A stretch of 64,000 nt of DNA from Candidatus Bathyarchaeota archaeon (GTDB lineage Archaea > Thermoproteota > Bathyarchaeia > Bathyarchaeales > Bathycorpusculaceae), in NCBI GenBank assembly GCA_026014745.1, contig JAOZHS010000001.1, positions 1,116,001 to 1,180,000 of the forward strand, given 5' to 3'. Shown here piece after piece: positions 28,218 to 54,729 of this stretch (position 1 is its first letter; each line of letters starts with the position of its first letter). Below the pieces are notes generated by a model, which was given only the letters and a program-made list of their open reading frames with translations, made no database searches and was not told the origin of the DNA. The position numbers were made by a program, and so were the translations under genes.

Positions 28218-28401
28218 CTAACTAAGTAAGGCGTAGGCAACCACGTTGTGGCTGTCTTTTGCAAAAAATTATAACCGCAGCACCCAATATTTCATCGATC
28301 ACCCCTATGCGCAGTAGAAGAGTTGCCGCTACCTTACTTGTAGTATACTTGTTTCTCGGTGTGTTTGTTCAGTTAGCAAACTCAGCTGCTGAACCCACTT
28401 C
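28218..28401. repeat. Near-identical promoter plus signal-peptide block, copy 1
   Basis: From CTAACTAAGTAAGGCGTAGG through the codons for the signal peptide, this 184-bp block is almost identical to 30382-30563 (182 bp), with a small indel near 28244-28256. Beyond it the two genes differ strongly. It covers the upstream region, the start and codons 1-31 of the propeller gene. Confidence 0.9.
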
Positions 28402-29539
28402 TTCAAACGATGACTGGTCAATGTTCCATCATGATCCAGCACACACTGGCTTCACGAATAGTTCCGCACCCACTTCCATTCCTAAAGAACTTTGGAGTAC
28501 GGGACCAATGGCTGCTTATTTAACGTCACCTGCAATAGTAAACGGTATCGTATACATGACTGGCTATTCTTTAATCGCTTTTGATGCATCCACAGGGGAA
28601 ATTGTCTGGCAACAGCGCGAAAAAGGCGGTTCACAACTAATTGTTGAAAATGGTATAGTTTACACGGGATTAGGTGCATTCAATGCTACTAATGGCGCTG
28701 AAATATGGGGTTTTCAGGGTGGTTCAATAGTTGCCGTTACAAATGGCCTCTATTACACAGTAACTGACAATTATTCAATTATTAGTCGAGATGGTTATAC
28801 TGGCGAGCTACTGTGGGAGCACGGTCAGTTAGGTTGCCCATCAGGTATTGCGGTCGAGAACGGGGTATTATATTTTGGAACTAGTTCCCACTTTTTTGCT
28901 CTCGATGCTTACAACGGCAGTACTGTGTGGGAAACTCAAAAAGGCATTATACAAGAATCTTCTCCTGCTGTTTCAGACGGATATGTGTATTTCAGTGGAG
29001 CCTTTAACGGGACCACAACGGACTATAATTTATTCTACTGTCTAGATGCGTTTACGGGCAGAGAAGTGTGGTGTTCAAAGGTGTACATTGGCTCGTCTCC
29101 CGCTGTTGCAGGTGGTCGCGTTTTTGTCGGTGGAAGAGATGGGCAGTTCTTTGCTTTTAATGCCACAGATGGTTCCAAAATTTGGAACTACTCTGTATTT
29201 TCTATGCCTGTAGGCCATGGTTTTGAGTCTTCCCCTGCTGTTACTAGTGACGCCGTATACGTTGGTGCCGACGATGGCTATCTATATGCATTTAATGCCT
29301 CAGATGGAAATAAACTGTGGAGTTATAAAGTGGGTGATAAACAGCATTTACAGTGTTCTCCTGCTATAGCTAATGGGCGAATCTACATGGGTTCTGAGGA
29401 GAATTTCTTGGTAGTCCTTGAACCTTGCGAAGTATGCTTTGATGTTACCTTTTTAGAGATTTCACTAATCATTTTGGTGGTTCTTATAGGGATTGCATTA
29501 GCTATAATTTCCTATAACAAACTCTTGAAAGCCAATTGA
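28307..29539 (+). CDS. Exported PQQ-repeat beta-propeller protein 1
   Basis: A 410-residue protein from the ATG at 28307; a TTG at 28259 would add 16 residues in front of a standard signal peptide (MRSRRVAATLLVVYLFLGVF, ending near ANSAAEP). The mature part begins DDWSMFHHDPAHTG and has about seven PQQ-like blades, each with Y-A-FNASDGNKLWSY-type repeats (for example LYAFNASDGNKLWSYKVG). The C-terminus has one membrane helix (ISLIILVVLIGIALAII) and a short basic tail, so it is displayed on the cell surface. These repeats form a propeller; binding of PQQ itself is not implied. Probable role: envelope or substrate-binding protein. Confidence 0.88.
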   Translation: MRSRRVAATLLVVYLFLGVFVQLANSAAEPTSSNDDWSMFHHDPAHTGFTNSSAPTSIPKELWSTGPMAAYLTSPAIVNGIVYMTGYSLIAFDASTGEIVWQQREKGGSQLIVENGIVYTGLGAFNATNGAEIWGFQGGSIVAVTNGLYYTVTDNYSIISRDGYTGELLWEHGQLGCPSGIAVENGVLYFGTSSHFFALDAYNGSTVWETQKGIIQESSPAVSDGYVYFSGAFNGTTTDYNLFYCLDAFTGREVWCSKVYIGSSPAVAGGRVFVGGRDGQFFAFNATDGSKIWNYSVFSMPVGHGFESSPAVTSDAVYVGADDGYLYAFNASDGNKLWSYKVGDKQHLQCSPAIANGRIYMGSEENFLVVLEPCEVCFDVTFLEISLIILVVLIGIALAIISYNKLLKAN

Positions 29540-29754: not shown

Positions 29755-30306
29755 TTACTGAATTGATTGTTTCCCCTTATGTCTTGTTAGGATTATTGCT
29801 AAGACGAAGATAATAACTGCTAATACAGCGCTTACTGTTATTACCATGCTCATCAGGCCTGTTGGGTTAAATCCAAAAATGGTCGGCGTACTAATGGAAT
29901 ACTCGTAATCGATGAGATGAGGCATAAAATCATCGCTTGAGATATAGAGGGAGTATTGTCCGTTGGTGTCTGCTATAAAGAAAAAGCTTGCGTTATTTTT
30001 ATTGTATTCATAATCAGTCGGACTAGAAATCATGGAGTCGCCCGCAGGATCAATAATTTCACAGTAAGTATGATTGTAACCATTAATAACATAAGACCCG
30101 TTGACGGCTTGGCCACTCTGAAGATCAAAAATTAGATATTTCACGCCACTCCCCGTATTAATATTCTGATTAAACTTGGTCGCTGAGGTAGTAACTGAAT
30201 ACTGCACAGCAGATTCCAAAGATAACACAATAACTGCTGTAGAGATTATTATGATGATTTCGAGGGCAATCAATTTCTTCAGCACACAACCCCCATTTCC
30301 TTTCAC
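29755..30306 (-). CDS. GOLD-like membrane-anchored exported protein, paralogue 2
   Basis: A 183-residue paralogue of the protein at 27671-28159. It starts at GTG 30306 with GGGAG six bases upstream. It has an N-terminal helix (LIALEIIIIISTAVIVLSL), the same beta segment (LIFDLQSGQAVNGSYVINGYNHTYCEIIDPAGDSM, FFIADTNGQYSLYISSDDF) and a C-terminal helix (GLMSMVITVSAVLAVIIFVLAIIL). The shared phrases LxSGQxVNG, DPxG, NGQYxxxIxxD and IDYxYxISxPxIxGxNP show common descent. Again it faces away from a PQQ-repeat gene. Confidence 0.65.
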   Translation of the reverse strand: MKGNGGCVLKKLIALEIIIIISTAVIVLSLESAVQYSVTTSATKFNQNINTGSGVKYLIFDLQSGQAVNGSYVINGYNHTYCEIIDPAGDSMISSPTDYEYNKNNASFFFIADTNGQYSLYISSDDFMPHLIDYEYSISTPTIFGFNPTGLMSMVITVSAVLAVIIFVLAIILTRHKGKQSIQ

Positions 30307-30381
30307 TGTTAGCTCCCTGTCAAGCTATCCGCAGGTCTTTTCTTATATGATTTTGGCTTTCTTGAAAGCGTAGAAATAGCT

Positions 30382-30563
30382 CTAACTAAGTAAGGCGTAG
30401 GCAACCACGTTTGGCTGTTTTTGCAAAAAATTATAACCGCAGCACCCAATATTTCATCGATCACCCCTATGCGCAGTAGAAGAGTTGCCGCTACCTTACT
30501 TGTAGTATACTTGTTTCTCGGTGTGTTTGTTCAGTTAGCAAACTCAGCTGCTGAACCCACTTC
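30382..30563. repeat. Near-identical promoter plus signal-peptide block, copy 2
   Basis: Second copy of the block at 28218-28401. The identity ends right after the codons for the signal peptide, where the second gene has an inserted EtS codon pair before the DDWPM motif. Confidence 0.9.
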
Positions 30564-31764
30564 CGAAACTTCAAACGATGACTGGCCGATGCTCCGACAT
30601 GATCCCGCCCATACGGGTCACTCTCCAAAAACTTTAAACATTAGCTTGAATGTCGCCTGGACATACAAACCTAGCATATCTTATGGCTTCTACCATCGAG
30701 TACCAGCAGTCGCCAATGGTTATCTCTACATAACTGACGACAATTATCTTTATTGCATTGATGCTTCAACTGGAAACCCTCATTGGATACAAAATTTGAC
30801 GATACAAGGTCCAATTACTCAGGAGGAATTTTCAACTGCTGTCTATGATGGTTATGTCTACACTGATAACGCAGCCTATGATGCTTTGACAGGGAAACTA
30901 GTTTTTACATTTCCAGTGCAAGCATCCACCTCACCCACAGTAACTGATGGCGCTATTTACATGGGCTCCAAAAATGGTGGTGTTATCGCTCTTAATGCCA
31001 CGACCGGCGGTGTTTTATGGGACACGAAGGGCGAACTACTTGAATCCTCGCCAGCCGTTTCAAATGGCGCTGTTTATTATTCCTATGGAAACCCTTGGCG
31101 GCAAAGCGGAGAAAGCTATGCAGTAGCTGCCCTAACTGGGAAAGAAATATGGCACAACTCGGCAGTAGGTGGACTCTACGCACATGTAGCGGTAGCCAAT
31201 GGGTATGTATATATTAACGGATTTAGCGGTCTGTTCTATTGCTTGAATGCAACGAGTGGAGCAACTGTTTGGAGCTATCCCGCTTACGCTGGCTGGCATT
31301 CTAATTCCCCCGCAGTAACGAACGAATATGTTTATGCTGGACCGCACATTTTCAACGCATCAACTGGAACTCTGCTTTATAACAATTCGATATTGACTGG
31401 TTCCGCTCCAGCCGTTACAAGCGAAAGCCTCTACGTCGGTTACTATAATAGCACCAATTCCGGAATGACGCCATATGTGCAAAAACTGTATACATTAAGT
31501 GGTTTTGGCGAAGGCATAACGAGCTATAAATTTCCCGGTGAATATGAATATGATACCTATTCTTCTCCAGTGATTGCCAATAGTATGGTTTACATTTGTG
31601 CCATCGGAAGCAATGAGATTTATGCTTTTGGCAACCCTGCGTCAATTGATGGTATTATCCTTTTCCCGAATCTATTTAGTGCTGTATTAATTATCGGAAT
31701 TACCCTTATCGCTGTAGTGATAACTGCTTATTTATTTAGATTAAGAAAGCTCAGAAGAGCATAG
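30469..31764 (+). CDS. Exported PQQ-repeat beta-propeller protein 2
   Basis: A 431-residue protein from the ATG at 30469, with the same signal peptide at DNA level as protein 1. The mature region starts DDWPMLRHDPAHTG and carries about seven PQQ-like blades (for example YLYCIDASTGNPHWIQNL, GGVIALNATTGGVLWDTKG, FYCLNATSGATVWSY). The C-terminal helix LFSAVLIIGITLIAVVITAYLF plus basic tail RLRKLRR anchors it. Outside the signal peptide, identity to protein 1 is low. Likely surface protein; ligand unknown. Confidence 0.88.
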   Translation: MRSRRVAATLLVVYLFLGVFVQLANSAAEPTSETSNDDWPMLRHDPAHTGHSPKTLNISLNVAWTYKPSISYGFYHRVPAVANGYLYITDDNYLYCIDASTGNPHWIQNLTIQGPITQEEFSTAVYDGYVYTDNAAYDALTGKLVFTFPVQASTSPTVTDGAIYMGSKNGGVIALNATTGGVLWDTKGELLESSPAVSNGAVYYSYGNPWRQSGESYAVAALTGKEIWHNSAVGGLYAHVAVANGYVYINGFSGLFYCLNATSGATVWSYPAYAGWHSNSPAVTNEYVYAGPHIFNASTGTLLYNNSILTGSAPAVTSESLYVGYYNSTNSGMTPYVQKLYTLSGFGEGITSYKFPGEYEYDTYSSPVIANSMVYICAIGSNEIYAFGNPASIDGIILFPNLFSAVLIIGITLIAVVITAYLFRLRKLRRA

Positions 31765-31907
31765 CAGAGTGTTTGTTTCTGAGACTTTGAGTGTTTCTTT
31801 AATTTTACGAGAACTTGTAGCATAGAACGCTGATTTGAAGGCTAAACTTGCGGAGGCACAACAACCCTGAATGGTGTAGAAGCATTTTTGCTTCTTTTTC
31901 TTTTGAT

Positions 31908-32114
31908 TTATGTTGGGGTTCGGCTTTTGGCGCAGTAAAAGTTGCCGTTTAGCCTGATGAAGGCGGGGCATTTGCCGTCGTAGCAGTGGTCTAGCCATTG
32001 GCAGGGTTGGCGGACTTCGTGGACGCGTGGCATGTAGCCGCGGGCGTCAAAATTTTGTTTGGGGATTTCTCGTTTAGAAATTTGTTTTAAAATTGTATCC
32101 ATGCTTGTTTCCAT
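31908..32114 (-). CDS. Small Cys-containing protein of unknown function
   Basis: Sixty-eight residues from the ATG at 32114, which follows AAAGGAG at 8-bp spacing; the longer frame starts inside the ribosome site. The C-terminal half QPCQWLDHCYDGKCPAFIRLNGNFYCAKSR has four Cys and one His, likely a metal site or cluster. No family recognised. It is divergent from pyrB across a 140-bp promoter region. Confidence 0.55.
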   Translation of the reverse strand: METSMDTILKQISKREIPKQNFDARGYMPRVHEVRQPCQWLDHCYDGKCPAFIRLNGNFYCAKSRTPT

Positions 32115-32192
32115 TTTTACTGCTCCTTTCAAAACCAGTCCTGAATTTATGTGACTATGCGTGCCTGATGCATATTAAAATGTGTTACAGTC

Positions 32193-32219
32193 GTTGTACA
32201 ACAACAAAAACATATAAGC
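32193..32219 (+). promoter_or_regulatory. pyrB promoter region: palindrome and TATA box
   Basis: The perfect 10-bp palindrome GTTGTACAAC (32193-32202) is followed by ACATATAAGC (TATA, 32210-32219). The predicted start near 32240 gives a 15-nt leader before the ATG at 32255. The palindrome could be an operator for either of the divergent genes. Confidence 0.45.
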
Positions 32220-32254
32220 ACTAATCTGCAAAACCAAAAAGCCACCCCACACAA

Positions 32255-33217
32255 ATGTTATTTACCCCTAACACGTCATCATGTTTGGTGCACAACTTGA
32301 CCTTTAAAGGCAGAGACATCGTATCCATCGCGGACTTCACAAGAGCCGAAATCAACCACATCCTCGACGTCACCGCCTCCATGGAGCCCCTTGCAAAAAA
32401 CGGCTCCGACATCCTCAAAGGCAAAATCCTCGCCACCCTCTTCTACGAACCCAGCACCCGCACACGCCTAAGCTTCGAGGCAGCCATGCTAAAACTCGGC
32501 GGCAGCAACATAGGATTCGCAGACGCCGACATCGCCTCAGTCAAGAAAGGCGAAACCCTCGCAGACACCGTCCGCGTTGTCGAAAACTACGCCGACGTAA
32601 TCGCGTTGCGCCACAGCCTCGAGGGCTCCGCAAAATTATCCGCAGAATTCAGCAAAGTCCCCCTCATCAATGGCGGCAGCGGGGCAGAAGAACACCCAAC
32701 CCAAGCCCTCACCGACCTCTACACAATCCAAAAAGAAAAAGGAACCATAGACGGATTAAAAATCGCCATAATCGGCGACCTCCGCTACGGCAGAACCGTC
32801 CACTCACTTGCCTACGCGCTGGCGCTCTACAACATCGAACTCTTCCTCATCGCGCCCGAATCGTTGCGGATGCGCAAAGACGTTCTGGAAACTATAAAAA
32901 ACAAAATCCCTGTCGCCGAAGGCACCAACCTTGACGCTATCCTGCCCCAAGTCGACGTTCTCTACGTGACCCGTATCCAAAAAGAACGCTTCCCCGACGC
33001 CTCTGAATACCTAAAAGTCAAAGGCGCCTACAAAATCGACCTCAAAACCCTACAAGGCGCCAAAAAAGACCTCATCGTACTCCACCCGCTGCCTCGTGTG
33101 GATGAAATTGCCCCCGAAGTGGATGCCACACCGCAGGCGAAATATTTCCAGCAGGTGCACAATGGTATCGTTGTGCGCATGGCGCTCCTTAGTCTCGTAT
33201 TGGGTGCGGTCCAGTAA
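32255..33217 (+). CDS. pyrB: Aspartate carbamoyltransferase, catalytic chain
   Basis: A 320-residue enzyme that joins carbamoyl phosphate and aspartate in the second step of pyrimidine synthesis. Clear motifs are the carbamoyl-phosphate loop FYEPSTRTR (S67-T-R-T), HPTQALTDLYTI near residue 150, GDLRYGRTVHSL and HPLPRVDEI near residue 277. Length is normal. The first 16 residues before TFKGRDIVSI are slightly longer than usual, but the TATA position supports the ATG at 32255. No pyrI regulatory-chain gene follows; the next gene is an unrelated surface protein. Confidence 0.96.
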   Translation: MLFTPNTSSCLVHNLTFKGRDIVSIADFTRAEINHILDVTASMEPLAKNGSDILKGKILATLFYEPSTRTRLSFEAAMLKLGGSNIGFADADIASVKKGETLADTVRVVENYADVIALRHSLEGSAKLSAEFSKVPLINGGSGAEEHPTQALTDLYTIQKEKGTIDGLKIAIIGDLRYGRTVHSLAYALALYNIELFLIAPESLRMRKDVLETIKNKIPVAEGTNLDAILPQVDVLYVTRIQKERFPDASEYLKVKGAYKIDLKTLQGAKKDLIVLHPLPRVDEIAPEVDATPQAKYFQQVHNGIVVRMALLSLVLGAVQ

Positions 33218-33227
33218 TCGGCGGGTT

Positions 33228-33242
33228 TGCGTAAATTAAATA
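33228..33242 (+). promoter_or_regulatory. TATA box of propeller gene 3
   Basis: TAAATTAAATATC at about 33230-33242 lies 25-37 bp before the ATG at 33267, which fits a leaderless or very short leader transcript. Confidence 0.5.
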
Positions 33243-33266
33243 TCTTTTGCGTGCTTAGGCAACACT

Positions 33267-34637
33267 ATGGCAAAGGTTAACTGGGCAGTGTTGTTTTTGG
33301 TTGTGTTTCTAATAACGCCGCTGTTATCTGCTGCTTGTGGGCAGTTGGGAGCACAAACCTTTGCTTCAAATGATGATTGGCCGATGTTTCGACATGACTC
33401 TACCCATACAGGTGCCGTAACAAATTCCTCCCTCATTGTGCCAAATGAGCTGTGGCGTTTTGCTGAAGGCACATCAAATAACATCTTTATTAGTTCATCT
33501 GCATCCGTCGTCAACGGCATAGTTTACATTGGGTCAAACTACAATGCAGTTAACCATAGAGGGGGCAGCATTTACGCGTTGGATGCTTATACTGGAGTTA
33601 AAATCTGGGATTTCTCAACTAATGGGTCCATATATTCATCCCCCGCGGTATGGAACAATATTTTGTTCGTTGGGGGTGCAGAGAGTAATTTCTATGCATT
33701 AAACGCGTTAACTGGCGCTAAACTATGGAGCACTAAGGTGTTTGCGTCTTATTCTTCACCATGTGTTGTTGACGGAGTGGTTTATGTTGGCTCAATTGAT
33801 GGTAACGTTTATGCTTTTGATGCTTGCAGTGGGGAAAAAATTTGGAATTACACAACGGGGGATTCGGTTGGGTCCTCGCCTGCCCTCCACGGAGGCGTTG
33901 TTTATGTGGGTTCAAATGACCACAACGTTTATGCCCTTGATGCGAAGGATGGTAGCAAAATTTGGAACTTTTCAACTGGTGGTATAGTTCATTCTTCGCC
34001 TGCTGTTAGTGGCGGAGTGGTTTATGTTGGTTCTGGGGACAGCACCCTTTACGCTCTAGATAGCTCTACGGGGACAAAATTATGGAGTTATCCGTATAAG
34101 ACACACGTAAGGGATGTAAGCGGCATTCAGGCTTCCCCCGCGGTGGCAGATGGTTTTGTATTTTTTGTTGCGTCTGACCATGTGTTCTATGCACTTAATG
34201 CGGCTACGGGTTCACAGGTTTGGAACGTCACAAAACTTTCTGTGGATGTTTCTTCTCCGGTTGTTGCTGACGGCCTTGTTTATGTTTGTGTTCCCCGAGG
34301 GTTTCTTGCATTTAACGCTTCGACTGGCGCGACAATACAGACATACGTCCTCAAGGATATCGCGAACGCAAAAATAATTGATGGTCACTGGCAAGTCATT
34401 ACGGGGTATGGCTTGATTAAATCATCACCTACCATAAGTAACGGTGTCATATACTTCACCTCGGAAAATGGGAACCTCTACGCAATAGGCGAACCAATAA
34501 TCCAGCCTTCAACTGACCAAGTGATTTCAGGCTTGGATAACTATGTTATCTGGATTATTCTTGCTGCCCTTACCTTGGGGATTAGCATTGTGATTACAAT
34601 CTTTGTACGTAACCGAAAAGCCAAACATTCAGGTTGA
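33267..34637 (+). CDS. Exported PQQ-repeat beta-propeller protein 3
   Basis: A 456-residue protein with a signal peptide (VNWAVLFLVVFLITPLLSAACG), the shared opening DDWPMFRHDSTHTG, and about eight PQQ-like blades of high regularity (VYVGSIDGNVYAFDACSGEKIWNYTTG, VYVGSNDHNVYALDAKDGSKIWNFSTG, VYVGSGDSTLYALDSSTGTKLWSY). The C-terminal helix YVIWIILAALTLGISIVITIF and basic tail RNRKAKHSG anchor it at the surface. The Cys near the cleavage site might allow lipid attachment, though an anchor is already present. Its last 9 bp overlap the convergent NrdD-like gene. Confidence 0.88.
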   Translation: MAKVNWAVLFLVVFLITPLLSAACGQLGAQTFASNDDWPMFRHDSTHTGAVTNSSLIVPNELWRFAEGTSNNIFISSSASVVNGIVYIGSNYNAVNHRGGSIYALDAYTGVKIWDFSTNGSIYSSPAVWNNILFVGGAESNFYALNALTGAKLWSTKVFASYSSPCVVDGVVYVGSIDGNVYAFDACSGEKIWNYTTGDSVGSSPALHGGVVYVGSNDHNVYALDAKDGSKIWNFSTGGIVHSSPAVSGGVVYVGSGDSTLYALDSSTGTKLWSYPYKTHVRDVSGIQASPAVADGFVFFVASDHVFYALNAATGSQVWNVTKLSVDVSSPVVADGLVYVCVPRGFLAFNASTGATIQTYVLKDIANAKIIDGHWQVITGYGLIKSSPTISNGVIYFTSENGNLYAIGEPIIQPSTDQVISGLDNYVIWIILAALTLGISIVITIFVRNRKAKHSG

Positions 34638-36836
34638 TGTGAAGCGGTCAAATGTCGTCAGGGTGCTCATGGACCCGCAGCTTGGGCATTTATGCAGGGT
34701 GCCGGGATAGTTTTTGCGGCAGTTCTCACAGAAACTCACCACACGGTTGTAAGTGAAGAATTCGATGGGGGTTTCTTGGAGTTGTTTGGTGAGTTCAAAT
34801 AATGCGTCGGCTTTGATTTCACCTTCCAGCTCGAAGACGTCAAGGCTGCCCCCATTATAGAGGCCCTTTTGGACTCGCGCCATCTCCACAAGCCCGCTGG
34901 GCAACCGTAAGGGTTCGTTTTGTTGGATTTTGATTCTTTTGATGGTCGAGTAGAAGGGTTTTTCACGTGTGCCCGAAAACTTGACCTTAGCCACTCCATA
35001 ACGTTCCATATCAAGTTGGGCGAGCCGTTCCGAGGCTTCGCGGTCGCCGAGGACCACTGTGTAGAGGCGTTTGCCGTATTTTCTGCCCATTTTCTGCTTC
35101 GACGCCAACAGAGTCGCGATGACTTCTTGGGCAAACTGGTTAGCCTCAGCTGACCCTATGGGTTTCTCAGTGAAGGCTTCGATTGCTTCTTTGAAGCCCG
35201 CTAAATCCACGATACGGCTACAGTTTTCCAATCGGAAGTAGGTGTCGCCGCTGCTTTTCTGAAGCAGAAACGGCAAGCTGTTTTTGCCGAATTGTTTGAG
35301 CGCATTATTTTTAATGCTCAACGCCCGCGCCGCGAGTTCGAAACGTTCGCGCAGTAAATCCATGAATTTGTTGAGGTCACGCTCCGATTCCAATACGAGG
35401 CGGGGTAAGTTTATGGTTACGCAGCCTAAGCTGCCTGTTCGCAATGTGTCGGTTTCCCAGTCGCCCGTGAGTTCGCCGCTGAATTTGACTCCTGAACCCG
35501 AAAACGCCGCGTTCTCCGTGTCCTTTTTGGTGAGGTTCGCGAAGTAGAGTAAGCCGCTTTTAGCCGCGATATTGTGAGCTTTTAGGAGCAGGGCTTTGGC
35601 GCGTTCATCGGTTTGGAGGGGTTTGTTGATTTTTATTACGATTTTGGGGTTAAGAAGCGGTTTTAGGTCGCTTTCTTCGTTGATGACGTCAAGGATTAGG
35701 CTCGCTACAAGCTGGCTTTCCTGTTGATAATCGCCATATTTGCCTGCGGCTTTGCCCTGTGCGCCTATAGCTTCCTTTTGAGCCGCCGAAGATGACATAG
35801 CCAGTTCCAGACCTAACGTGGCTTCAACATGCTGGTTGAGGTCAAAGAGGAACAGTCGCAGGTTCTCTTTGAGGCTGGCGACATCGTTGCCCCGCACAAA
35901 CGGCGCGAGTGCCACATTGAAATAGTTGAAGGTTTGAGTGCGGCTGGTTTCTTTACTGGAATGCAACAGCACATTGAATACAATGTCTAAGGCGGCTTTG
36001 AAGCTGACCGGCGGCTCCATCGCTGCTTGGGTGGGGTCGTCAACGTGTATACCATGCTGGAAGAAGTATCGGATGTCATGGACAACCTCGTTGGGTTTAA
36101 GCAGCCATGTGCCCAAGGAGTTAATGTGTATCGCGCCGGATAGGTGGGCGTCGGCGATGTCGCGTGGAAAAATGTTTAGCAGAGTATATTCGCCCAGCAC
36201 GGTTTGCCCCGCCCGATATATGGTGGACGCGGACTCTAAGAGGTCCTTGTTTTCGATGAGGATGGTGACTTCGTGGATAGGCATGCCGACACGGGTAAGT
36301 TTGTGACGGTAATCCTCATAGCCCTTCTCAACGAGGATGCTGTTAACGACTTCGCGGATAAGCGGGGCAGTTAAGTATTTGGTTTTGGATTTTACAAGGC
36401 GCTTCTCAGCTTCTTTAGCGGCTTTCTGCGCTAGTTCAGGCGGCACCTTGGCTTCTCTTATGAGGTTGTTGGCGATTTTGTTGGCGTCAAACTCTTCCAC
36501 AGTCAAATGAGAAGTGCGCACCATCATGCCGCGTGGTTTGACTGCTTTTTTCTCGACACGGTCGGCGACGTCTAGCACCATTTTGCCTAGGTCTGTTAGG
36601 AAGTATTTTTTTGCCTCGACATCGGCTTCGACGAGGTCGGCTTTAAGGAGATATTTGAGGTGGTAGGCGAAGCGTCCAGCGTCGCGGCTGGGATTCATTT
36701 TAAGCTGATTCATAAGTTCCGTGTAGGAGAGTGCGTTGCTGTCAAAGAGCAAGTTGAGGATTTGTAGCCGCAGGGGTGATGATACGGCTTTGAGTACTTT
36801 TACGCCTCGACTGCGCATTGGCTGCTGATTAACCAT
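34629..36836 (-). CDS. Winged-helix + ATP-cone + NrdD-like protein lacking catalytic residues
   Basis: A 735-residue protein. Residues 10-85 are an ArsR-type winged helix (VSSPLRLQILNLLFDSNALSYTELMNQL, ADLVEADVEAKKYFLTDLG). Residues 104-195 are an ATP-cone (VRTSHLTVEEFDANKIANNLI). Residues 200-700 follow the anaerobic ribonucleotide reductase (NrdD) fold, with IHINSLGTW, VVHDIRYFFQHG and GSLGCVTINLPR. The C-terminus has a zinc ribbon CENC...CPSC. Genuine NrdD has a Cys in the RPFCQ-type motif, a further Cys pair in the finger loop, and a glycyl-radical RxxGY at the end; here these read LLKPNEVVHD, SGVKFSGE, and DRFTST followed by stop. So it is probably not an enzyme but a nucleotide-sensing DNA-binding regulator (inference). 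Confidence 0.8.
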   Translation of the reverse strand: MVNQQPMRSRGVKVLKAVSSPLRLQILNLLFDSNALSYTELMNQLKMNPSRDAGRFAYHLKYLLKADLVEADVEAKKYFLTDLGKMVLDVADRVEKKAVKPRGMMVRTSHLTVEEFDANKIANNLIREAKVPPELAQKAAKEAEKRLVKSKTKYLTAPLIREVVNSILVEKGYEDYRHKLTRVGMPIHEVTILIENKDLLESASTIYRAGQTVLGEYTLLNIFPRDIADAHLSGAIHINSLGTWLLKPNEVVHDIRYFFQHGIHVDDPTQAAMEPPVSFKAALDIVFNVLLHSSKETSRTQTFNYFNVALAPFVRGNDVASLKENLRLFLFDLNQHVEATLGLELAMSSSAAQKEAIGAQGKAAGKYGDYQQESQLVASLILDVINEESDLKPLLNPKIVIKINKPLQTDERAKALLLKAHNIAAKSGLLYFANLTKKDTENAAFSGSGVKFSGELTGDWETDTLRTGSLGCVTINLPRLVLESERDLNKFMDLLRERFELAARALSIKNNALKQFGKNSLPFLLQKSSGDTYFRLENCSRIVDLAGFKEAIEAFTEKPIGSAEANQFAQEVIATLLASKQKMGRKYGKRLYTVVLGDREASERLAQLDMERYGVAKVKFSGTREKPFYSTIKRIKIQQNEPLRLPSGLVEMARVQKGLYNGGSLDVFELEGEIKADALFELTKQLQETPIEFFTYNRVVSFCENCRKNYPGTLHKCPSCGSMSTLTTFDRFTST

Positions 36837-36942
36837 CCCTGCTCTATCTCTCCTTACCCAGCTTTTTGTCGGGGCTACCTATTATTCCACTGGAGAGTTT
36901 AAACTTAGCGAAAAAAGAAGGAAACCGTGAAGTGTTTGACTC

Positions 36943-37992
36943 TTAAACAGGACAGGGTTGCTGCTGGCTGATGCAATGCAGGGTGCCAAAGCCATAAACC
37001 ACGTCCCCACAGTAGATTCCTACGACTTTTCGGGTTGGAAACAGCTCCTGCAGAATCCTGATTGCCTCGGCGTCGTGGGGGTCATTGAAGACTGGAACGA
37101 GGACTTTGGTGTTGCCGATGTAGAAGTTGGTGTAGCTGGCGGGGAGCAGGTAGTCTTCGTCGCTGATGACTTTGGGCATGGGCAGTTTGACGATGCGGAA
37201 GGGTTTGCCGTCTTGGTCTACTGCCTGAGTAAGGATTTCATAGTTTTCTTGAAGCGCTGCATAGTCTGCGTCGTTGGGGTTTTCTTGGTAGGCGCAGACG
37301 ATGGTGGTGGGGTTAACGAAGCGGGCTAAATCATCGATGTGCCCATCAGTATCATCGCCGAGGATGCCGCGTTTGAGCCAAATAAAATGCTGCACCCCCA
37401 AATACTTGCAGAGGTACTTCTCGATTTGCTGCTTGTTGAGGTCGGGGTTGCGGTTCTCGTTTAACAGGCATTGCTCCGTGGTGAGTAGGGTGCCTTCGCC
37501 GTTGACGTCAATGGAGCCGCCCTCTAAAACGATGCCCGGTTCAAAACAGGGCAACGCCATCTTTTGGTTGATAACGTCGGGGATTTCTTTGTCTTTTAGG
37601 AGAGTTTCGTATTTTTCGCCCCAAGAGTTAAACTTCCAATGAATCATCGCCAACTCATGTTTGGAGTTTTTGACGAATATAGGACCGTAATCGCGGAACC
37701 AAACGTCGGCGTAGTCATGAATGTGAAAGGTAACTTTGGATAAATCAATGTCCGCCGCTTGGAAGAGGCGGCTGGCTTTCTGTTTGGTTTCTTCGTCTTT
37801 TACAAAGAGGTTTACGTGTTCGCTTGTGTGGATTTCTTTGACGATTTGAACGTAGGTGCCTTCGACTTTTTCGACGCGATTAGGGAAGGTTAGGGGGTCG
37901 TAGGGCCACGCGAGCCAGATGGCGCTGTGGGGTTGCCACTCGGCGGGCATCCTATAATCCAGCGGATTGCAGGCTTTAGGGGTTTTACTCAT
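36943..37992 (-). CDS. aguA: Agmatine deiminase
   Basis: A 349-residue protein of the agmatine deiminase/porphyromonas-type PAD family, which converts agmatine to N-carbamoylputrescine. Motifs are RMPAEWQPHSAIWLAWPYDP at the N-terminus, DVWFRDYGPIFV, LEGGSIDVNGEGTLLTTEQCLL, GDDTDGHIDDLARFV (catalytic Asp/His) and the nucleophile Cys in GFGTLHCISQQ near residue 340. Length is normal. It overlaps the next upstream gene (N-carbamoylputrescine amidase) by 8 bp, so both steps are made together. Confidence 0.95.
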   Translation of the reverse strand: MSKTPKACNPLDYRMPAEWQPHSAIWLAWPYDPLTFPNRVEKVEGTYVQIVKEIHTSEHVNLFVKDEETKQKASRLFQAADIDLSKVTFHIHDYADVWFRDYGPIFVKNSKHELAMIHWKFNSWGEKYETLLKDKEIPDVINQKMALPCFEPGIVLEGGSIDVNGEGTLLTTEQCLLNENRNPDLNKQQIEKYLCKYLGVQHFIWLKRGILGDDTDGHIDDLARFVNPTTIVCAYQENPNDADYAALQENYEILTQAVDQDGKPFRIVKLPMPKVISDEDYLLPASYTNFYIGNTKVLVPVFNDPHDAEAIRILQELFPTRKVVGIYCGDVVYGFGTLHCISQQQPCPV

Positions 37993-38887
37993 GTTTGTCG
38001 GCTCCTTGGGTGAGGGGTTTGTAGGTGTCGGGGCGGCGGTTGCGCAGAAAACCCCAGCCTTCCTGAATAAGTTGATTTCTGGCTAAGTCTAGTGTGACGA
38101 CGATGACTTCTTCTTGGGTGGTGCTTGCTTCCGCGACGACTTTGCCAAAAGAGTCAGCTATGAAGCTGCCTCCCCAGAATTCCAGTTCGTCTTCTTCGCC
38201 GACACGGTTCACGGCTGCCACATGAATGCCGTTACCTATGGCGTGGGCACGTTGCACGGTTCGCCATGCGTCATGCCAGTCGCCGTCTGCGGATGTGTAC
38301 CCTTTGACGTAGCCGATGGCTGTGGGGTAAAAGATGATTTCAGCTCCCTGCAAGGCGTGGATGCGGGCGGGTTCAGGGAACCATTGGTCATAACAAATCA
38401 AAGCGCCAATTTTGGCGTAGCGCGTTTGGTAGACTTGGTAGGGTGTGTTGCCTTCTGAGAAGTATTCTTTTTCGTAGAAGTAGGGGTCAAACGGTATGTG
38501 GGCTTTGCGGTAGGTGCCCAAAATTTTGCCGTCAGCGTCAATTACGGCGGCGGTGTTGTAGTATTTGCCGTCTGAGCCCTTCTCAAAGAGGGGCGCGACA
38601 ATGACGATTTGATGCTTTTTGGCTAATTCACAGAAGAGTTTGGTGGATTCGCCTGGGATGGATTCCGCGTAACTTGATGCGTCCACGTTTTCCTGTTGTG
38701 GGAAGTATCTGGTTCGGTAGAGTTCTTGAAGGCACACGATTTGGGCGCCTCGGCTTGCGGCTTCCTCGATTTTTGCTGCGGTTTTTTTCATGTTCGCCGC
38801 TATGTCGCTGGTAACTGCGGTTTGGATAAGCCCTACCGTGACTGTTTTTTTGTTGGGTGCTCTCTTCGTTGTTATTGGCGTTTCCAT
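37985..38887 (-). CDS. aguB: N-carbamoylputrescine amidase (nitrilase family)
   Basis: A 300-residue carbon-nitrogen hydrolase. The catalytic triad is E55 (LQELYRTRYF), K128 (YRKAHIPFDP) and C165 (ICYDQWFPEPARIHAL). The sequence matches the AguB group, which releases putrescine, CO2 and ammonia from N-carbamoylputrescine. It is the first gene of a two-gene operon with agmatine deiminase. Together they turn agmatine into putrescine, so the cell can make putrescine without agmatinase. Confidence 0.94.
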   Translation of the reverse strand: METPITTKRAPNKKTVTVGLIQTAVTSDIAANMKKTAAKIEEAASRGAQIVCLQELYRTRYFPQQENVDASSYAESIPGESTKLFCELAKKHQIVIVAPLFEKGSDGKYYNTAAVIDADGKILGTYRKAHIPFDPYFYEKEYFSEGNTPYQVYQTRYAKIGALICYDQWFPEPARIHALQGAEIIFYPTAIGYVKGYTSADGDWHDAWRTVQRAHAIGNGIHVAAVNRVGEEDELEFWGGSFIADSFGKVVAEASTTQEEVIVVTLDLARNQLIQEGWGFLRNRRPDTYKPLTQGADKHE

Positions 38888-39043
38888 CCTTTTGGAATTA
38901 ATTTATGTGCAGTTCTATTAACTTTTTGAGAACGCAACGCTAAACGCACTTAAAAACCTGTTTTCTCACTTGGATGCGCCTTGGTTTTGCCCTCCACTTT
39001 GTTTCTGGGCTAAACACGAAAGGGCAGCTTAAATCGGGTTTTT

Positions 39044-39080
39044 TTGAACAGTTCTTCAACATTTGTTCAATAAATTTATA
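39044..39080 (+). promoter_or_regulatory. Inverted repeat next to TATA box of CLC gene
   Basis: TTGAACA (39044-39050) and TGTTCAA (39064-39070) are perfect inverted arms with 13 bp between them, centres 20 bp apart. The right arm touches the TATA box TAAATTTATA (39071-39080). The ATG at 39107 lies where a leaderless start is expected. The site is a good candidate operator or activator site. Confidence 0.55.
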
Positions 39081-39106
39081 AGCAATTGGTGGGTTTGACG
39101 CGCAAA

Positions 39107-40780
39107 ATGAGTAGGCTCGATAGTGTCCGTTATTATTTGATGGTTGCTGTAGTAGGTTTAATGGCAGCTGCCGCCGCCATCGTGTTGTACTTGGTTTACA
39201 CAGAACTCTGGGCATTTACACAAACCTGCATCTCCTACTCAATTCTACTCTTCATCCCCCTGGCTTTTGGCGCTATAGTGGGGTCATTTTATTTAGTAAA
39301 ACGCTGTGCAAACACCAAAACCACTGGGTCAGGTACCCACACGGTACTGGAAGCTTACCATTTAACCAACGGCGAAATCAGCCTCCGAGACACCGTAGTC
39401 AAACCCGTCGCAGGTATGTTAACAATCGGTTTAGGGGGCAGCGCAGGACCTGAGGGACCCGGTCTGCTAGCAGGCGGCGGAATCGCTTCATGGTTTTCTC
39501 GGCGGCTCAAAATTCCCCCTGACATGCGTATGCGCCTCTTCATCGCGGGCGCCGCTGCGGGCTTAGCCGCTACCTTTCGGACACCGCTGACTGCCATTTT
39601 GTTTGCGCTTGAAATCCCCTATAAAAACGACTTAGACCGCGAAACCTTCGTCGAAGCCTCCGTTGCATCCATCCCCGCCTATTTGCTTTCGGTTGCGGTG
39701 CTGGGCAGCGAACCCATCTTTGGCTCCATTGCCAACGTCCCCCTCACTTTAGAAGTGATTGGGTTGTCTTTGCTTTTGGGTTTAATCTGTGGTCTCTACG
39801 CTGTGTTCTTCACTAAATCGTTTGCTTGGATGGGACAATTAGGTGTCAAAATCCGCAAACGCTACGGCCTCAACACCGTGATAATTCTCGGTGCATTGGT
39901 GCTTGCAGCTTCTGGCTTAATCTCTGTTTACTCTATCGGTGTAGGACTGCATTTTGTTAACGCCTTAATCAGCGGGGCAAGCTTTAGCATCGCTGTGCTT
40001 ATCGGCATTGTATTGTTGAAGACTTTTGTAACTGCCACAACGCTTAACTTCGGCGGTTCCGGAGGCTTGTTCTTCCCCACAATCGTTATCGGCGCTGGCT
40101 TAGGTTACATCTTCTCGCTGGTCTTTAGCCAAGTTAACCTCGCGGTGATGTTTATCGCGGTCGGTATGGCGTCTTTGCTTGCTGGAACCCACAAAATACT
40201 CCTCACCCCTGTGGCGTTCGTTGTGGAAACTTTGGGCGGCGTGTTTGCTATACCCGCGTTGCTTGCCAGTGGCATCAGCTACCTGCTCTCCGGTAAACAC
40301 TCCTTCTATCCGCTTCAGCCTCGTACCCGCTTAAAGACTGAGGAGTTAGCTTTGGAGCGGTTCTTCCTTAAAGGTCAAAAACTAATACCTGATAAACTCC
40401 GTAGCTCCATCGCGTCAGAAGTCATGACTAAGCGACCTATCGTACTGCTTAAAGGCACCAGCGTCCGTGAAGCTCTCGAGACCTTTGAGGGCACTAAACT
40501 GCGTGTTATGCCCGTAATTGATCAAGAAAACCATGTTATTGGCGTGGTGAACCTTGAAGACCTCGGCTACATCGATGTGCGACGTCAAGAACTCAGCCTC
40601 TCAGATACCGTGATGCATACACCCATTATCCAAAAAGAAACTGATAATCTTGAGACGATAGCGCAATCCATGATGGACACCCAAGAAGACCACATCTTTA
40701 TCGTGGACTCAGACGATAAACTGGTCGGCGTCATCTCTGGTATTGATGTGGTTAAGAAAATCATTGAACTCCTGTCCTAG
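39107..40780 (+). CDS. CLC-family chloride channel/antiporter with CBS pair
   Basis: A 557-residue protein; the ATG at 39107 is preferred over TTG 39086 because the TATA box predicts transcription to start about there. The membrane part has CLC signatures: GGSAGPEGPGLLAGGGIASW (with the gating-Glu type GPEGP near residue 110), RTPLTAILFALE, and the second-half NFGGSGGLFFPTIVIGAGLG. The C-terminal 150 residues hold two CBS domains (VMTKRPIVLLKGTSVREAL and DNLETIAQSMMDTQEDHIFIVD), likely sensing adenine nucleotides or ionic state. It moves chloride or exchanges it with protons. Confidence 0.93.
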   Translation: MSRLDSVRYYLMVAVVGLMAAAAAIVLYLVYTELWAFTQTCISYSILLFIPLAFGAIVGSFYLVKRCANTKTTGSGTHTVLEAYHLTNGEISLRDTVVKPVAGMLTIGLGGSAGPEGPGLLAGGGIASWFSRRLKIPPDMRMRLFIAGAAAGLAATFRTPLTAILFALEIPYKNDLDRETFVEASVASIPAYLLSVAVLGSEPIFGSIANVPLTLEVIGLSLLLGLICGLYAVFFTKSFAWMGQLGVKIRKRYGLNTVIILGALVLAASGLISVYSIGVGLHFVNALISGASFSIAVLIGIVLLKTFVTATTLNFGGSGGLFFPTIVIGAGLGYIFSLVFSQVNLAVMFIAVGMASLLAGTHKILLTPVAFVVETLGGVFAIPALLASGISYLLSGKHSFYPLQPRTRLKTEELALERFFLKGQKLIPDKLRSSIASEVMTKRPIVLLKGTSVREALETFEGTKLRVMPVIDQENHVIGVVNLEDLGYIDVRRQELSLSDTVMHTPIIQKETDNLETIAQSMMDTQEDHIFIVDSDDKLVGVISGIDVVKKIIELLS

Positions 40781-50993: not shown

Positions 50994-51452
50994 ATGACTA
51001 CTCCCTTGGTACTTGATGAAGCAGATAAACGAATCCTTGAAGTCCTCCAACATGACGGCAGGATATCCTTCGCGGACCTGAGCCGTAAACTAAACCTCGC
51101 CGAAGCAACCATCCGATTCCGAGTCAAACGCCTCGAAGACCACAAAGTCATAACCCACTTCGCCGCCATCGTAGACCCCACAAAAGTGGGATTTGGAGTA
51201 AGCGGCGCAATTTTGCTAAAAATTGACCCAGCACATTTGGAGGAGGCTTGTAAAGAACTGATGGCGTTTACTGAGACGGCTTACCTGTTTCAGAGTACGG
51301 GTGAGTATGATGTGGTTTCGGTGATTTTTGCCCACGACATGGCACACCTCAACGATGTGGTTAAGAAGACGAAGTTGATTGAGGGTGTGAAGGATGCGCG
51401 GATTTCGGTGACTACTCGGCTTTTGAAGATGGATTCAGCCATAACCTTGTGA
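50994..51452 (+). CDS. Lrp/AsnC-family transcriptional regulator
   Basis: A 152-residue protein with the N-terminal helix-turn-helix (EADKRILEVLQHDGRISFADLSRKLNLAEATIRFRVKRLEDHKVI) and the C-terminal RAM/AsnC ligand-binding domain (GVSGAILLKIDPAHLEEACKELMAFTETAYLFQSTGEYDVVSVIFAHD). Length is normal. It precedes the ahb operon by 130 bp in the same direction. AhbA and AhbB are themselves built on the Lrp fold, so this gene could be either a real regulator of heme synthesis or just an unlinked relative. Confidence 0.88.
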   Translation: MTTPLVLDEADKRILEVLQHDGRISFADLSRKLNLAEATIRFRVKRLEDHKVITHFAAIVDPTKVGFGVSGAILLKIDPAHLEEACKELMAFTETAYLFQSTGEYDVVSVIFAHDMAHLNDVVKKTKLIEGVKDARISVTTRLLKMDSAITL

Positions 51453-51595
51453 TGTTGCTGATTCAGCAATACTATTTTATTTGTGGATAATTTTACGCAA
51501 CATTAATACGATTTAACGCTGTAAAAAGAGCCACCGTATGCACCAACCTTGCCCAAACAAACCTGAAGAGGCAACAAGGCATGCCGGTGACAAAC

Positions 51596-52072
51596 ATGAC
51601 CCAACCCCCAGCAACCCTAACCTCCACCGATAAAAAAATAATCCAAATCCTCCAAGACCAATTCCCCCTAACAGAACGCCCCTACCAACAAATCGCAAAC
51701 CAACTCAACCTCACCGAAACCCAAGTCCTAAACCGAATAAAACACCTAACCAAGCAAGGCATCACCCCAAAAATAGGCGCCATCATAGACACCCAAAAAA
51801 GCGGGTACGCCGCCACCCTAGTTGCCCTAAAAGTGCCCCCGCACAAAATAGACGAAGTTTCTGCAGTCATAAACCAGTATTCAGGCATCTCTCACAATTA
51901 TCAAAGGGAACATGCTTACAACGTTTGGTTCACGCTCCGAGCAGCAACCAAAACCGCATTAGACAACACCCTAAGCGAAATTGCCCAAAAAACCAGCATC
52001 GCCCCAAAGGACACGCTTAACCTGCCCACCAAGCAATGCTTCAAAATCCAAGTGCGCTTCCAACTCACCTAA
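51596..52072 (+). CDS. ahbA: Siroheme decarboxylase subunit AhbA
   Basis: About 158 residues from the ATG at 51596, which has GGTGA at 51585-51589; ATG 51581 would add five residues. STDKKIIQILQDQFPLTERPYQQIANQLNLTETQVLNRIKHLTKQGI is the Lrp-like helix-turn-helix seen in AhbA/B, followed by GYAATLVALKVPPHKIDEVSAVINQYSGISHNYQREHAYNVWFTL with the His residues of the family (SHNYxREHxYNxWFT). With AhbB it removes two carboxyl groups from siroheme. First gene of ahbABCD. Confidence 0.9.
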   Translation: MTQPPATLTSTDKKIIQILQDQFPLTERPYQQIANQLNLTETQVLNRIKHLTKQGITPKIGAIIDTQKSGYAATLVALKVPPHKIDEVSAVINQYSGISHNYQREHAYNVWFTLRAATKTALDNTLSEIAQKTSIAPKDTLNLPTKQCFKIQVRFQLT

Positions 52073-52085
52073 TCGTGGTGTCTAT

Positions 52086-52556
52086 ATGGATGCAGTTGAC
52101 CGCAAGCTTTTAGCAAAAACCGAAAAAGGCCTCCCCCTCACACCCAAACCCTTCCATGACGTAGCCGCCCAACTCGGCATCACCTCCGACGAAGTCCTCA
52201 CACGACTACAAAGGCTAAAAGAAGAGGGCGTTATACGTAGGTTTGGCGCTTCAATTCGACCCAACAGCGTCGGGTTTAGCGCAAACGCCATGGTCGCGTG
52301 GAAAGTCCCCGCAGAGCGCATCCAAGAAGTAGGTGCCTTTTTTTCGGGATACACAGATGTTTCCCATTGCTATGAACGCCAAATTGTTGTGGACCGCTGG
52401 GAATACAATCTCTATACAGTTATGCATGCCCCCGACCGCACTACCCTAGAAGCGTTGGTTAAGCGGTTAAGTGAAGCTTCGGGGTTAGGGGACTTTACGA
52501 TTCTCTACAGCACTCGAAACCTAAAAACATCCAAAGAGGAAAAAAGCCGATGCTAA
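52086..52556 (+). CDS. ahbB: Siroheme decarboxylase subunit AhbB
   Basis: A 156-residue partner of AhbA, starting at ATG 52086; the longer frame from 51981 shadows ahbA. The order is the same: helix-turn-helix PFHDVAAQLGITSDEVLTRLQRLKEEGVIRRFGASIRP and the second domain with YTDVSHCYERQIVVDRWEYNLYTVMHA. The conserved SHCYxR and WxYNLYTxMH blocks are diagnostic of AhbB. The last 7 bp overlap ahbC. Confidence 0.93.
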   Translation: MDAVDRKLLAKTEKGLPLTPKPFHDVAAQLGITSDEVLTRLQRLKEEGVIRRFGASIRPNSVGFSANAMVAWKVPAERIQEVGAFFSGYTDVSHCYERQIVVDRWEYNLYTVMHAPDRTTLEALVKRLSEASGLGDFTILYSTRNLKTSKEEKSRC

Positions 52557-53695
52557 ACATAACCAAACTTTGGTGTGGCGTCCCCGGCAGCATGGACAGC
52601 CTTCGGTACAGTGACTCTACACACAAAAAACCCGTCATCGTCTGGAACAGCACGCAACGCTGTAATCTGCACTGCGTTCACTGCTACGCCAACTCCGAAA
52701 ACAAACCCTACCCCAACGAATTAACCACCCAAGAAGCCCGCGCCTTCATAGCGGACCTAGCCGCCTTCAAAGTTCCCGTGCTGCTCTTCTCAGGCGGCGA
52801 ACCGATTCTTCGAGAAGACCTCTTTGAATTAGCAGCTTATGCCACAACAAAGGGTATCCGGGCGGTGCTCTCGACCAACGGAACCCTCATCACACCAACC
52901 GTAGCTAAACAACTCAAAGCAGCAGGGTTCTCTTATGTCGGCGTAAGCATCGACGGCACCGAAGAAACCAACAACCGCTTCCGAGGCTGCCCAGACGCGT
53001 TTGAAGCTGCCATCGAGGGCATCCGTAACTGCAAGGCCGCAGGCGTCAAACCCGGATTGCGCTTCACGGTAACCAAGTACAACTATGCTGATTTGCCAAA
53101 GATTTTTGATTTAATTGAATCTGAGCAAATTCCCCGTGCCTGCTTCTACCATTTAGCCTATGCGGGTCGAGGCTCAGGCATCACCAAAGACGACCTTACA
53201 CAAGCGCAGACGCGGGAATTCATGGATTACATTTTAGCCAAAGCCGAAGACTTCCAGCATAAACACCTAAACACCGAAATCTTAACCGTGGACAACCATA
53301 CTGACGCAGTTTACTTGTACCTCAAACTTAAAGAAAAGAACCCCGCGTGGGCGCAAATTGTGCTTGAGCTCTTGAAGTTAAATGGTGGCAACAGTTCAGG
53401 GGAAGGCATCGGCTGTGTCGACGCGCAAGGCTTTGTGCATCCGGATCAGTTTTGGCGTCACCACACGTTGGGGAATATTCGGGAGCGGCGGTTTAGTGAA
53501 ATCTGGACCGACCTCAAAGAACCCCTCTTGATGGGTCTGCGAAGCCGCCGAAGTCTCCTAAAAGGCAAATGCGCGACCTGCTCGTTTCTTGACATCTGTA
53601 ACGGCAACCTTCGCGTCCGCGCTGAAGCCGTCTACTGTGACGTTTGGGCATCCGACCCCGCATGCTACTTAACCGCCTCCGAGATAACGCCATGA
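52550..53695 (+). CDS. ahbC: AhbC: 12,18-didecarboxysiroheme deacetylase (radical SAM)
   Basis: A 381-residue radical SAM enzyme. MLNITKLWCGVPGSMDSLRY at the N-terminus and the cluster motif CNLHCVHCY near residue 39 match AhbC, followed by FSGGEPILREDLFELAAYA and VSIDGTEETNNRFRG. The C-terminal SPASM-like region has KGKCATCSFLDICNGN. It removes the acetate side chains to give Fe-coproporphyrin III in the alternative heme pathway. It overlaps ahbB by 7 bp and ahbD by 4 bp. Confidence 0.92.
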   Translation: MLNITKLWCGVPGSMDSLRYSDSTHKKPVIVWNSTQRCNLHCVHCYANSENKPYPNELTTQEARAFIADLAAFKVPVLLFSGGEPILREDLFELAAYATTKGIRAVLSTNGTLITPTVAKQLKAAGFSYVGVSIDGTEETNNRFRGCPDAFEAAIEGIRNCKAAGVKPGLRFTVTKYNYADLPKIFDLIESEQIPRACFYHLAYAGRGSGITKDDLTQAQTREFMDYILAKAEDFQHKHLNTEILTVDNHTDAVYLYLKLKEKNPAWAQIVLELLKLNGGNSSGEGIGCVDAQGFVHPDQFWRHHTLGNIRERRFSEIWTDLKEPLLMGLRSRRSLLKGKCATCSFLDICNGNLRVRAEAVYCDVWASDPACYLTASEITP

Positions 53696-54729
53696 CAACT
53701 CCCCCTAGCTCCTCGGCTGTTGCGCCTCGCGTCGTGGCTTGGGAATCTACCCGCGCCTGCGCCTTCGCCTGCCGTCACTGCCGCGCCCAAGCCCAAAAAA
53801 ACGCTGACCCCAACCAACTCACCATCCCCGAAGCCCTAAACCTGATAGACCAAATAGCTGAGTTATGCAAACCCGTATTCATCATTAGCGGCGGTGACCC
53901 CCTCCAGCGCCCAGACATTTTTGAAATCGCTGCCTACGCGTCTAAGAGGGGGTTTAGGGTGGTAATGTCTCCAAGTGGCAGCAATATCACTTCTGGGATT
54001 ATTGAGAAGCTCAAGGCTTCGGGAGTTCGGATGATTTCTCTAAGTTTAGATGGCTCCACCGCTTTAGTGCATGATGGTTTTCGGCAGGTTTTGGGCGCTT
54101 TTGATTTGGTTCTGCGCAACGTATCCTATGCAAACGGGGGCGGGTTGCCCTTTCGCATTAACACCACCGTCACGCAGCATAATGTTGGCGATTTAGAAGC
54201 CACCCATAGGTTGGCGGTTTCTTTGGGCGCTAAAGAATTTGACGTATTCATGCTGGTGCCCACGGGCAGAGGTAAGATAAGCATGGAACTCTCCCCCAGC
54301 CAATACGAAGAAACCCTCAAAACCATACACAACCTCAGCCTCACCTCATCCATACCCGTCAAAGTGACCTGTGCACCCCAGTATGTGCGGGTTGCGTTAC
54401 AGCAAAAAAACCAAACTACACGCGCAGCCATGGGGCGGGGCTGCATGGCGGGCAACGGCTTCTGTTTTGTTTCCCATGTCGGCGACGTGTTCGGTTGTGG
54501 GTTTTTGCCTTTGGCGGCGGGTAATGTTAAGCTTCAAAGTTTCAGGGATATCTATCACAATTCGCCTCTTTTTTTGGAGTTGCGCAATCCTGAGTTGTTG
54601 CGGGGGAAGTGCGGCGTTTGCGGTTTTAAGGCATTATGTGGCGGTTGCCGCGCTAGAGCTCTATCGGTCCATAGGAGTCACTTAGCCCAAGAACCCTACT
54701 GCGAATATCTGCCGAGCAATGGTTGTTGA
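53692..54729 (+). CDS. ahbD: AhbD: heme synthase (radical SAM)
   Basis: A 345-residue radical SAM enzyme starting at ATG 53692 in an ATGA overlap with ahbC. PRVVAWESTRACAFACRHCRAQAQ holds the CxxxCxxC cluster site; FIISGGDPLQRPDIFEIAAYA and MISLSLDGSTALVHDGFRQV follow. The C-terminal cluster segment is KCGVCGFKALCGGCRARAL. AhbD converts the two propionates of Fe-coproporphyrin III to vinyl groups, giving heme b. The close similarity of motifs to AhbC fits the known AhbC/AhbD pair. Confidence 0.92.
   Translation: MTTPPSSSAVAPRVVAWESTRACAFACRHCRAQAQKNADPNQLTIPEALNLIDQIAELCKPVFIISGGDPLQRPDIFEIAAYASKRGFRVVMSPSGSNITSGIIEKLKASGVRMISLSLDGSTALVHDGFRQVLGAFDLVLRNVSYANGGGLPFRINTTVTQHNVGDLEATHRLAVSLGAKEFDVFMLVPTGRGKISMELSPSQYEETLKTIHNLSLTSSIPVKVTCAPQYVRVALQQKNQTTRAAMGRGCMAGNGFCFVSHVGDVFGCGFLPLAAGNVKLQSFRDIYHNSPLFLELRNPELLRGKCGVCGFKALCGGCRARALSVHRSHLAQEPYCEYLPSNGC

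Follow-up and report, generated by a model that had tools for sequence, protein, structure and literature searches.

The nearest functional parallel to the gene described here is NrdR (TIGR00244), the bacterial repressor of ribonucleotide reductase (RNR) genes, in which an ATP-cone lies beside a DNA-binding domain and whose gene is linked to RNR genes. NrdR is a protein of about 150 aa that binds DNA through an N-terminal zinc ribbon. It does so when loaded with ATP plus dATP (PMC12051234), demonstrating that an ATP-cone reading ATP and dATP can control DNA binding. Since NrdR is mainly bacterial, transcription-level control of dNTP supply in most archaea is largely unknown. Two further systems bear on this gene: the class III reductases, NrdD (PF13597, TIGR02487), and the archaeal winged-helix regulators of the ArsR family and DUF7347, which are mostly small proteins. 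In a 64,000-nucleotide stretch of a Candidatus Bathyarchaeota archaeon genome (hereafter, the window), we found a gene whose product shares with NrdD an ATP-cone, by model the RNR fold, the motif GSxGxVTxNLPR and a C-terminal zinc ribbon, and shares with the winged-helix regulators a domain that exceeds both of their Pfam cut-offs. Among open-licence papers, we found no earlier description of an NrdD fused to a DNA-binding domain, and we regard the novelty of the fusion as provisional.

Domain composition and catalytic columns

The gene lies at 34629..36836 on the minus strand (stop included), begins with ATG and encodes 735 aa, a full length that is conserved in relatives. Its ArsR-type winged-helix domain (aa 14-88, 36573..36797, minus strand) was detected by both HTH_5 (26.7 bits, cut-off 22) and DUF7347 (32.4 bits, cut-off 27.6), in agreement with the initial annotation, which had placed an ArsR-type DNA-binding domain at the front of the protein. 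The recognition region of this domain has the consensus AGRFAYHLKxLL, and the surrounding segment is basic, with a net charge of +5 over aa 10-100. Every family member whose N terminus is intact has an alignable winged helix, whereas the NrdDs lack one. Next comes an ATP-cone (aa 104-177, 36306..36527, minus strand; PF03477, 33.0 bits, cut-off 25.8) carrying R-T at the classical K-R positions, as active archaeal NrdDs do, and then an NrdD-fold domain (aa 207-731, 34644..36218, minus strand; PF13597 (NRDD), 219 bits, cut-off 26.2). The NCBIfam equivalog model for NrdD, TIGR02487, scored the protein at 234 bits, below its cut-off of 326.35, and the NrdR model TIGR00244 gave no match to it. Within the NrdD-fold domain, the fold landmark GSLGCVTINLPR (aa 468-479, 35400..35435, minus strand) aligns with GSIGVVTLNIPR of the genome's own NrdD. 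The C-terminal four-Cys zinc ribbon (C703, C706, C717 and C720; 34677..34730, minus strand) is invariant in alignment A1, and the three zinc-ribbon Cys columns that we scored are retained in 56-58 of 59 family members.

A sequence search of the PDB with the window protein ranked class III NrdDs first and winged-helix factors next. We also built an AlphaFold2 model from a 30-sequence alignment (mean pLDDT 84.5), in which the NrdD core was confident and the winged helix well modeled, while confidence in the ATP-cone was moderate and the linkers around residues 98-102 and 180-200 were uncertain. When this model was compared with the PDB using Foldseek, the first 36 matches were all class III NrdDs. 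The structure prediction that the initial annotation had called for thus yields an RNR fold by model, and its statement that the landmarks of the NrdD fold (ATP-cone, GSLGCVTINLPR and C-terminal zinc ribbon) are retained is borne out by the Pfam matches, the alignment and Foldseek.

We then asked what remains of the active site. Catalytic columns were fixed by aligning the genome's own intact NrdD to solved NrdDs, with the thiyl-radical Cys column identified through MGCRTR of P. copri (the GCR motif of the T4/P. copri type), and were scored across 59 family members aligned together with 19 NrdDs. All 19 NrdDs but none of the 59 family members have Cys in the column of the first active-site Cys, which in the window protein is occupied by E250 (36087..36089, minus strand). 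At the thiyl-radical column, Cys is present in 19/19 NrdDs and 2/59 family members; here the window protein has V450 (35487..35489, minus strand), and the MGCR-type motif reads SGVK. The glycyl-radical column contains Gly in all 18 NrdDs whose C terminus is present and in 3/59 family members, and is filled by S734 (34635..34637, minus strand), one residue before the chain stops (S734-T735). Overall, none of the three residues occurs in 54 of the 59 family members, exactly one occurs in the other five and no member has more than one, as compared to all three in 18/19 NrdDs. These comparisons support a predicted loss of catalysis across the family. The absence of the active-site Cys residues, and a chain that halts at DRFTST where RxxGY is expected, had both been noted in the initial annotation and stand; its broader claim that every radical residue was lost holds for the window protein and the 54 members, but not of the three members with the Gly or the two with the thiyl Cys.

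A sequence error that truncates the protein just ahead of RxxGY, which the initial annotation had raised as a contrary explanation, finds no counterpart in the DNA: the motif was absent in every frame over 300 bp after the stop, and close orthologues stop at the same place (...DRFxST and similar). More distant members keep a tail beyond the zinc ribbon that resembles the end of NrdD (e.g., LxPLxxWPxAK), nearly all without the Gly, a pattern that reads as stepwise decay and leaves intermediate states still visible among relatives. Where dS could be estimated, dN/dS against relatives was 0.06-0.12, values that are rough as dS is near saturation, indicating that the gene is maintained by purifying selection rather than decaying. 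Together with the conserved ends in relatives, these values ruled out a pseudogene or frameshift.

The distribution of sequence identity is informative as to which parts of the protein are under constraint. Conservation within the family peaks in the ATP-cone, with a mean identity of 62.9% as opposed to 37.3% among NrdDs, whereas the NrdD domain is the least conserved, at 32-33% compared with 40-45% among NrdDs. Between the window protein and members from ammonia oxidisers, identity was 54-56% in the ATP-cone and 23-25% in the NrdD domain. The conservation pattern is thus reversed relative to NrdD, with the ATP-cone favored over the enzyme domain, as expected if function resides in the sensor and DNA-binding parts.

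Distribution of the family and its genomic context

Searching one phylum, we recovered full-length or nearly full-length relatives at E 1e-79 or better in 197 of the 257 Bathyarchaeia genomes, with three families of this class (f25-f27) seemingly devoid of the gene. The gene is also present in many further families of the phylum, including ammonia-oxidising archaea; beyond the named loci, these lineage labels rest on AmoA and kinship labels. Archaeal AmoA was detected in 13/13 genomes tested from families f29, f60, f57 and f74, which identifies these as ammonia-oxidising archaea, and was not detected in the f69 representative (G511). In one ammonia oxidiser (G491, L147:3502-5627), the family gene is split into two overlapping ORFs by a frameshift in either the gene or the assembly. 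In a maximum-likelihood tree, a single branch (SH-aLRT 100) separates the family from all NrdDs, and because the root of the tree is not known, this supports a single separation from NrdD without giving its direction. We considered a mobile origin and rejected it: among the plasmid matches listed, there were only ordinary NrdDs, none of which reached the N-terminal winged helix.

Gene order links the family to RNR genes of two classes. The family gene lies directly upstream of, and co-oriented with, nrdJ, which encodes the class II RNR, in 20/20 genomes examined from f29, in 5/5 from f60 and in those genomes that represent f57, f74 and f69. In f75, the pair is convergent. At six loci of Bathyarchaeia (L114-L118 and L121), it instead directly adjoins a class III nrdD whose catalytic residues are intact. 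Occurrence beside RNR genes of two such different classes speaks for control of RNR rather than for a fixed enzyme partner. The arrangement is not universal; in several carrier families (e.g., f34, f38, f50 and f76) we saw no RNR gene beside the family gene, and within the window's genus it has no nrd neighbors, but a few relatives (e.g., L046) carry it within about 4-20 kb of nrdR-nrdD.

The host has an RNR of its own. Most of its closest relatives in named collections are labeled Candidatus Bathyarchaeota or Bathycorpusculum, in keeping with a Bathyarchaeia-type archaeon. Its assembly (2.7 Mb, 3 contigs) contains an intact nrdR-nrdD-nrdG set on a contig other than that of the NrdD-like gene, so the separate nrdD-nrdG pair that the initial annotation had suggested looking for is present, together with nrdR. 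No nrdJ was found in the host genome; with the intact set in place, the dead copy is not needed for catalysis. We found no nrdG-like ORF beside the NrdD-like gene in the window, nrdG residing with the intact nrdD elsewhere, and the intact set rules out the NrdD-like protein as the genome's sole NrdD. Nearly every genome in the window's genus has NrdR, whereas none of 34 carriers tested outside the window's wider group had an NrdR over the cut-off, suggesting that the family may serve where NrdR is missing while coexisting with it in the window's genus. Across this genus, a TATA-like element upstream of nrdR (L001:3582-4347 and L176-L195) is closely followed by the conserved inverted repeat TGTAGTGT-N(about 15)-ACACTAC, which is likely an archaeal NrdR site.

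Upstream of the NrdD-like gene itself, we found a different element. The block GCTAAGTTTAAACTCTCC (36892..36909, minus strand), which contains the palindrome AGTTTAAACT, is conserved in 20 genus members and, judged by its conservation, is a candidate core promoter or operator. No second good site for it was present in the genome, which contained only two three-mismatch matches, near chance by our estimate. We also sought an operator common to the NrdD-like gene and nrdR-nrdD-nrdG and found none, the two conserved upstream blocks being different in the genus. In other lineages, the sequence upstream of the family gene shows GATC enrichment in f29 (15.2 vs 4.8 per kb; noted at loci L132, L133 and L136-L153) but not in f60. 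An Rfam search of window positions 30000-40000 returned no RNA element.

Several neighboring genes are of separate interest. In the interval 32255-34637 of the window, pyrB lies close to the dead NrdD gene and in convergent orientation, as in 15/15 genus relatives checked, and between the two is a gene for a PQQ-repeat protein (33267-34637) that shares 9 bases with the end of the NrdD-like gene. On the other side, upstream and on the same strand, are agmatine deiminase-like and N-carbamoylputrescine amidase-like genes (36943-38887), which in some relatives are both matched by a single long ORF. Further away, two proteins of the PQQ-repeat (beta-propeller) type (28259-29539 and 30421-31764) are identical over about their first 48 residues, which suggests that the leader was recently duplicated or underwent gene conversion. 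Finally, a run of three AsnC/Lrp-type regulator-like ORFs and then two radical-SAM-like proteins (50994-54729) resembles an alternative heme (siroheme decarboxylase, Ahb) cluster.

A predicted nucleotide-responsive regulator and its alternatives

We propose that the members of this widespread archaeal family, pseudo-RNRs with a fused winged helix, probably regulate the transcription of RNR genes in response to nucleotides; that they bind DNA, their nucleotide ligand, the direction of control and the target promoters are features that we infer. As the family gene often adjoins the gene of a working enzyme, it probably encodes a switch that controls that gene by sensing nucleotides. In the mechanism we envision, the ATP-cone would tell ATP from dATP, and dNTP binding may persist in the NrdD fold, at the specificity site of the dimer interface. 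Nucleotide binding would then alter how the protein oligomerizes or how its paired winged helices are arranged, and these helices would bind near the promoter of an RNR gene and, in ammonia-oxidising archaea, also at the family gene's own promoter, such that RNR expression would be lowered when dNTPs are plentiful. The initial annotation's description of a reductase turned into a regulator fits all of the evidence and is strengthened by the gene-order link to two RNR classes, "regulator" being the inferential part of it. The parallel it drew with NrdR fares less evenly, as it suits the 34 NrdR-less carriers, but in the host genome a true NrdR is present and has not been replaced. Regarding origin, we consider it an evenly balanced proposition that the family evolved once in the Bathyarchaeia/Nitrososphaeria line by joining a winged helix to a complete RNR, with catalysis lost afterwards, giving an RNR regulator that replaced NrdR.

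Certain observations run against a regulator. The whole 500-residue NrdD fold has been kept, which is more than a simple dATP sensor needs, and the ATP-cone has R-T rather than K-R, a feature it shares with active archaeal NrdDs. In the window's genus no shared operator was found, the upstream block has no second good site in the genome, the gene lacks nrd neighbors and NrdR is present. Retention of the fold and zinc ribbon, along with adjacency to RNR genes of both classes, would also suit a dead paralogue of NrdD that associates with NrdD or NrdJ to tune activity or stability and uses its winged helix for protein contacts, and pseudoenzyme partners are common in other families. We nonetheless find such a partner unlikely, given that class II and class III RNRs differ so widely that one direct partner would be hard to keep, that the NrdD domain is the part least conserved and that the winged helix is retained in members across the phylum. 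The large fold could alternatively reflect other chemistry or a residual reductase activity, with the thiyl-position Cys in 2/59 members and the radical-position Gly in 3/59 as its possible traces; however, more than one of the three residues is found in no member, and members occur in ammonia oxidisers that have class II NrdJ, making an enzyme very improbable.

The genus of the window raises a different question, namely whether the protein regulates genes other than those of RNRs (e.g., for nucleotide salvage, pyrimidine synthesis or DNA replication) in response to a ligand other than dATP. Here the gene is off the nrd loci and close to pyrB in 15/15 relatives, and its promoter block is unlike that of nrdR. 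Convergent orientation, however, means that it has no promoter in common with pyrB, RNR genes of two classes adjoin the family gene in many other lineages and ATP-cones have been described mainly in RNR proteins and NrdR, and we therefore regard non-RNR targets as improbable as well. In the evenly balanced reading of a single origin, the regulator would have inherited the allosteric sensors of the enzyme (the ATP-cone and possibly the specificity site), so that transcription of class II and class III RNRs would be tuned by the enzyme's own nucleotide logic. The family is also a clear case of an ancient essential enzyme turned pseudoenzyme, probably a sensor. It offers a concrete candidate regulator of dNTP supply in the abundant ammonia-oxidising archaea and in Bathyarchaeia, with the candidate gene sitting right before nrdJ in a group that has cultivated members. 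As databases likely count such proteins as anaerobic RNRs, they may also mislead on the anaerobic capacity of aerobic archaea.

Comparison with known systems

Relative to NrdR, the window protein has an ArsR-type winged helix followed by a full, dead NrdD, and its zinc ribbon is C-terminal, as in NrdD. From class III NrdD it departs in that both active-site Cys residues and the radical Gly are replaced, its TIGR02487 score falls under the cut-off and a winged helix has been added. Compared to the regulators of the ArsR family and DUF7347, its candidate sensor is an ATP-cone plus an NrdD fold. Reuse of an RNR fold without catalysis is otherwise seen in some herpesviruses, which have catalytically dead RNR large subunits; these, however, have the class I fold, serve in protein interaction and lack the fusion of an ATP-cone with a winged helix.
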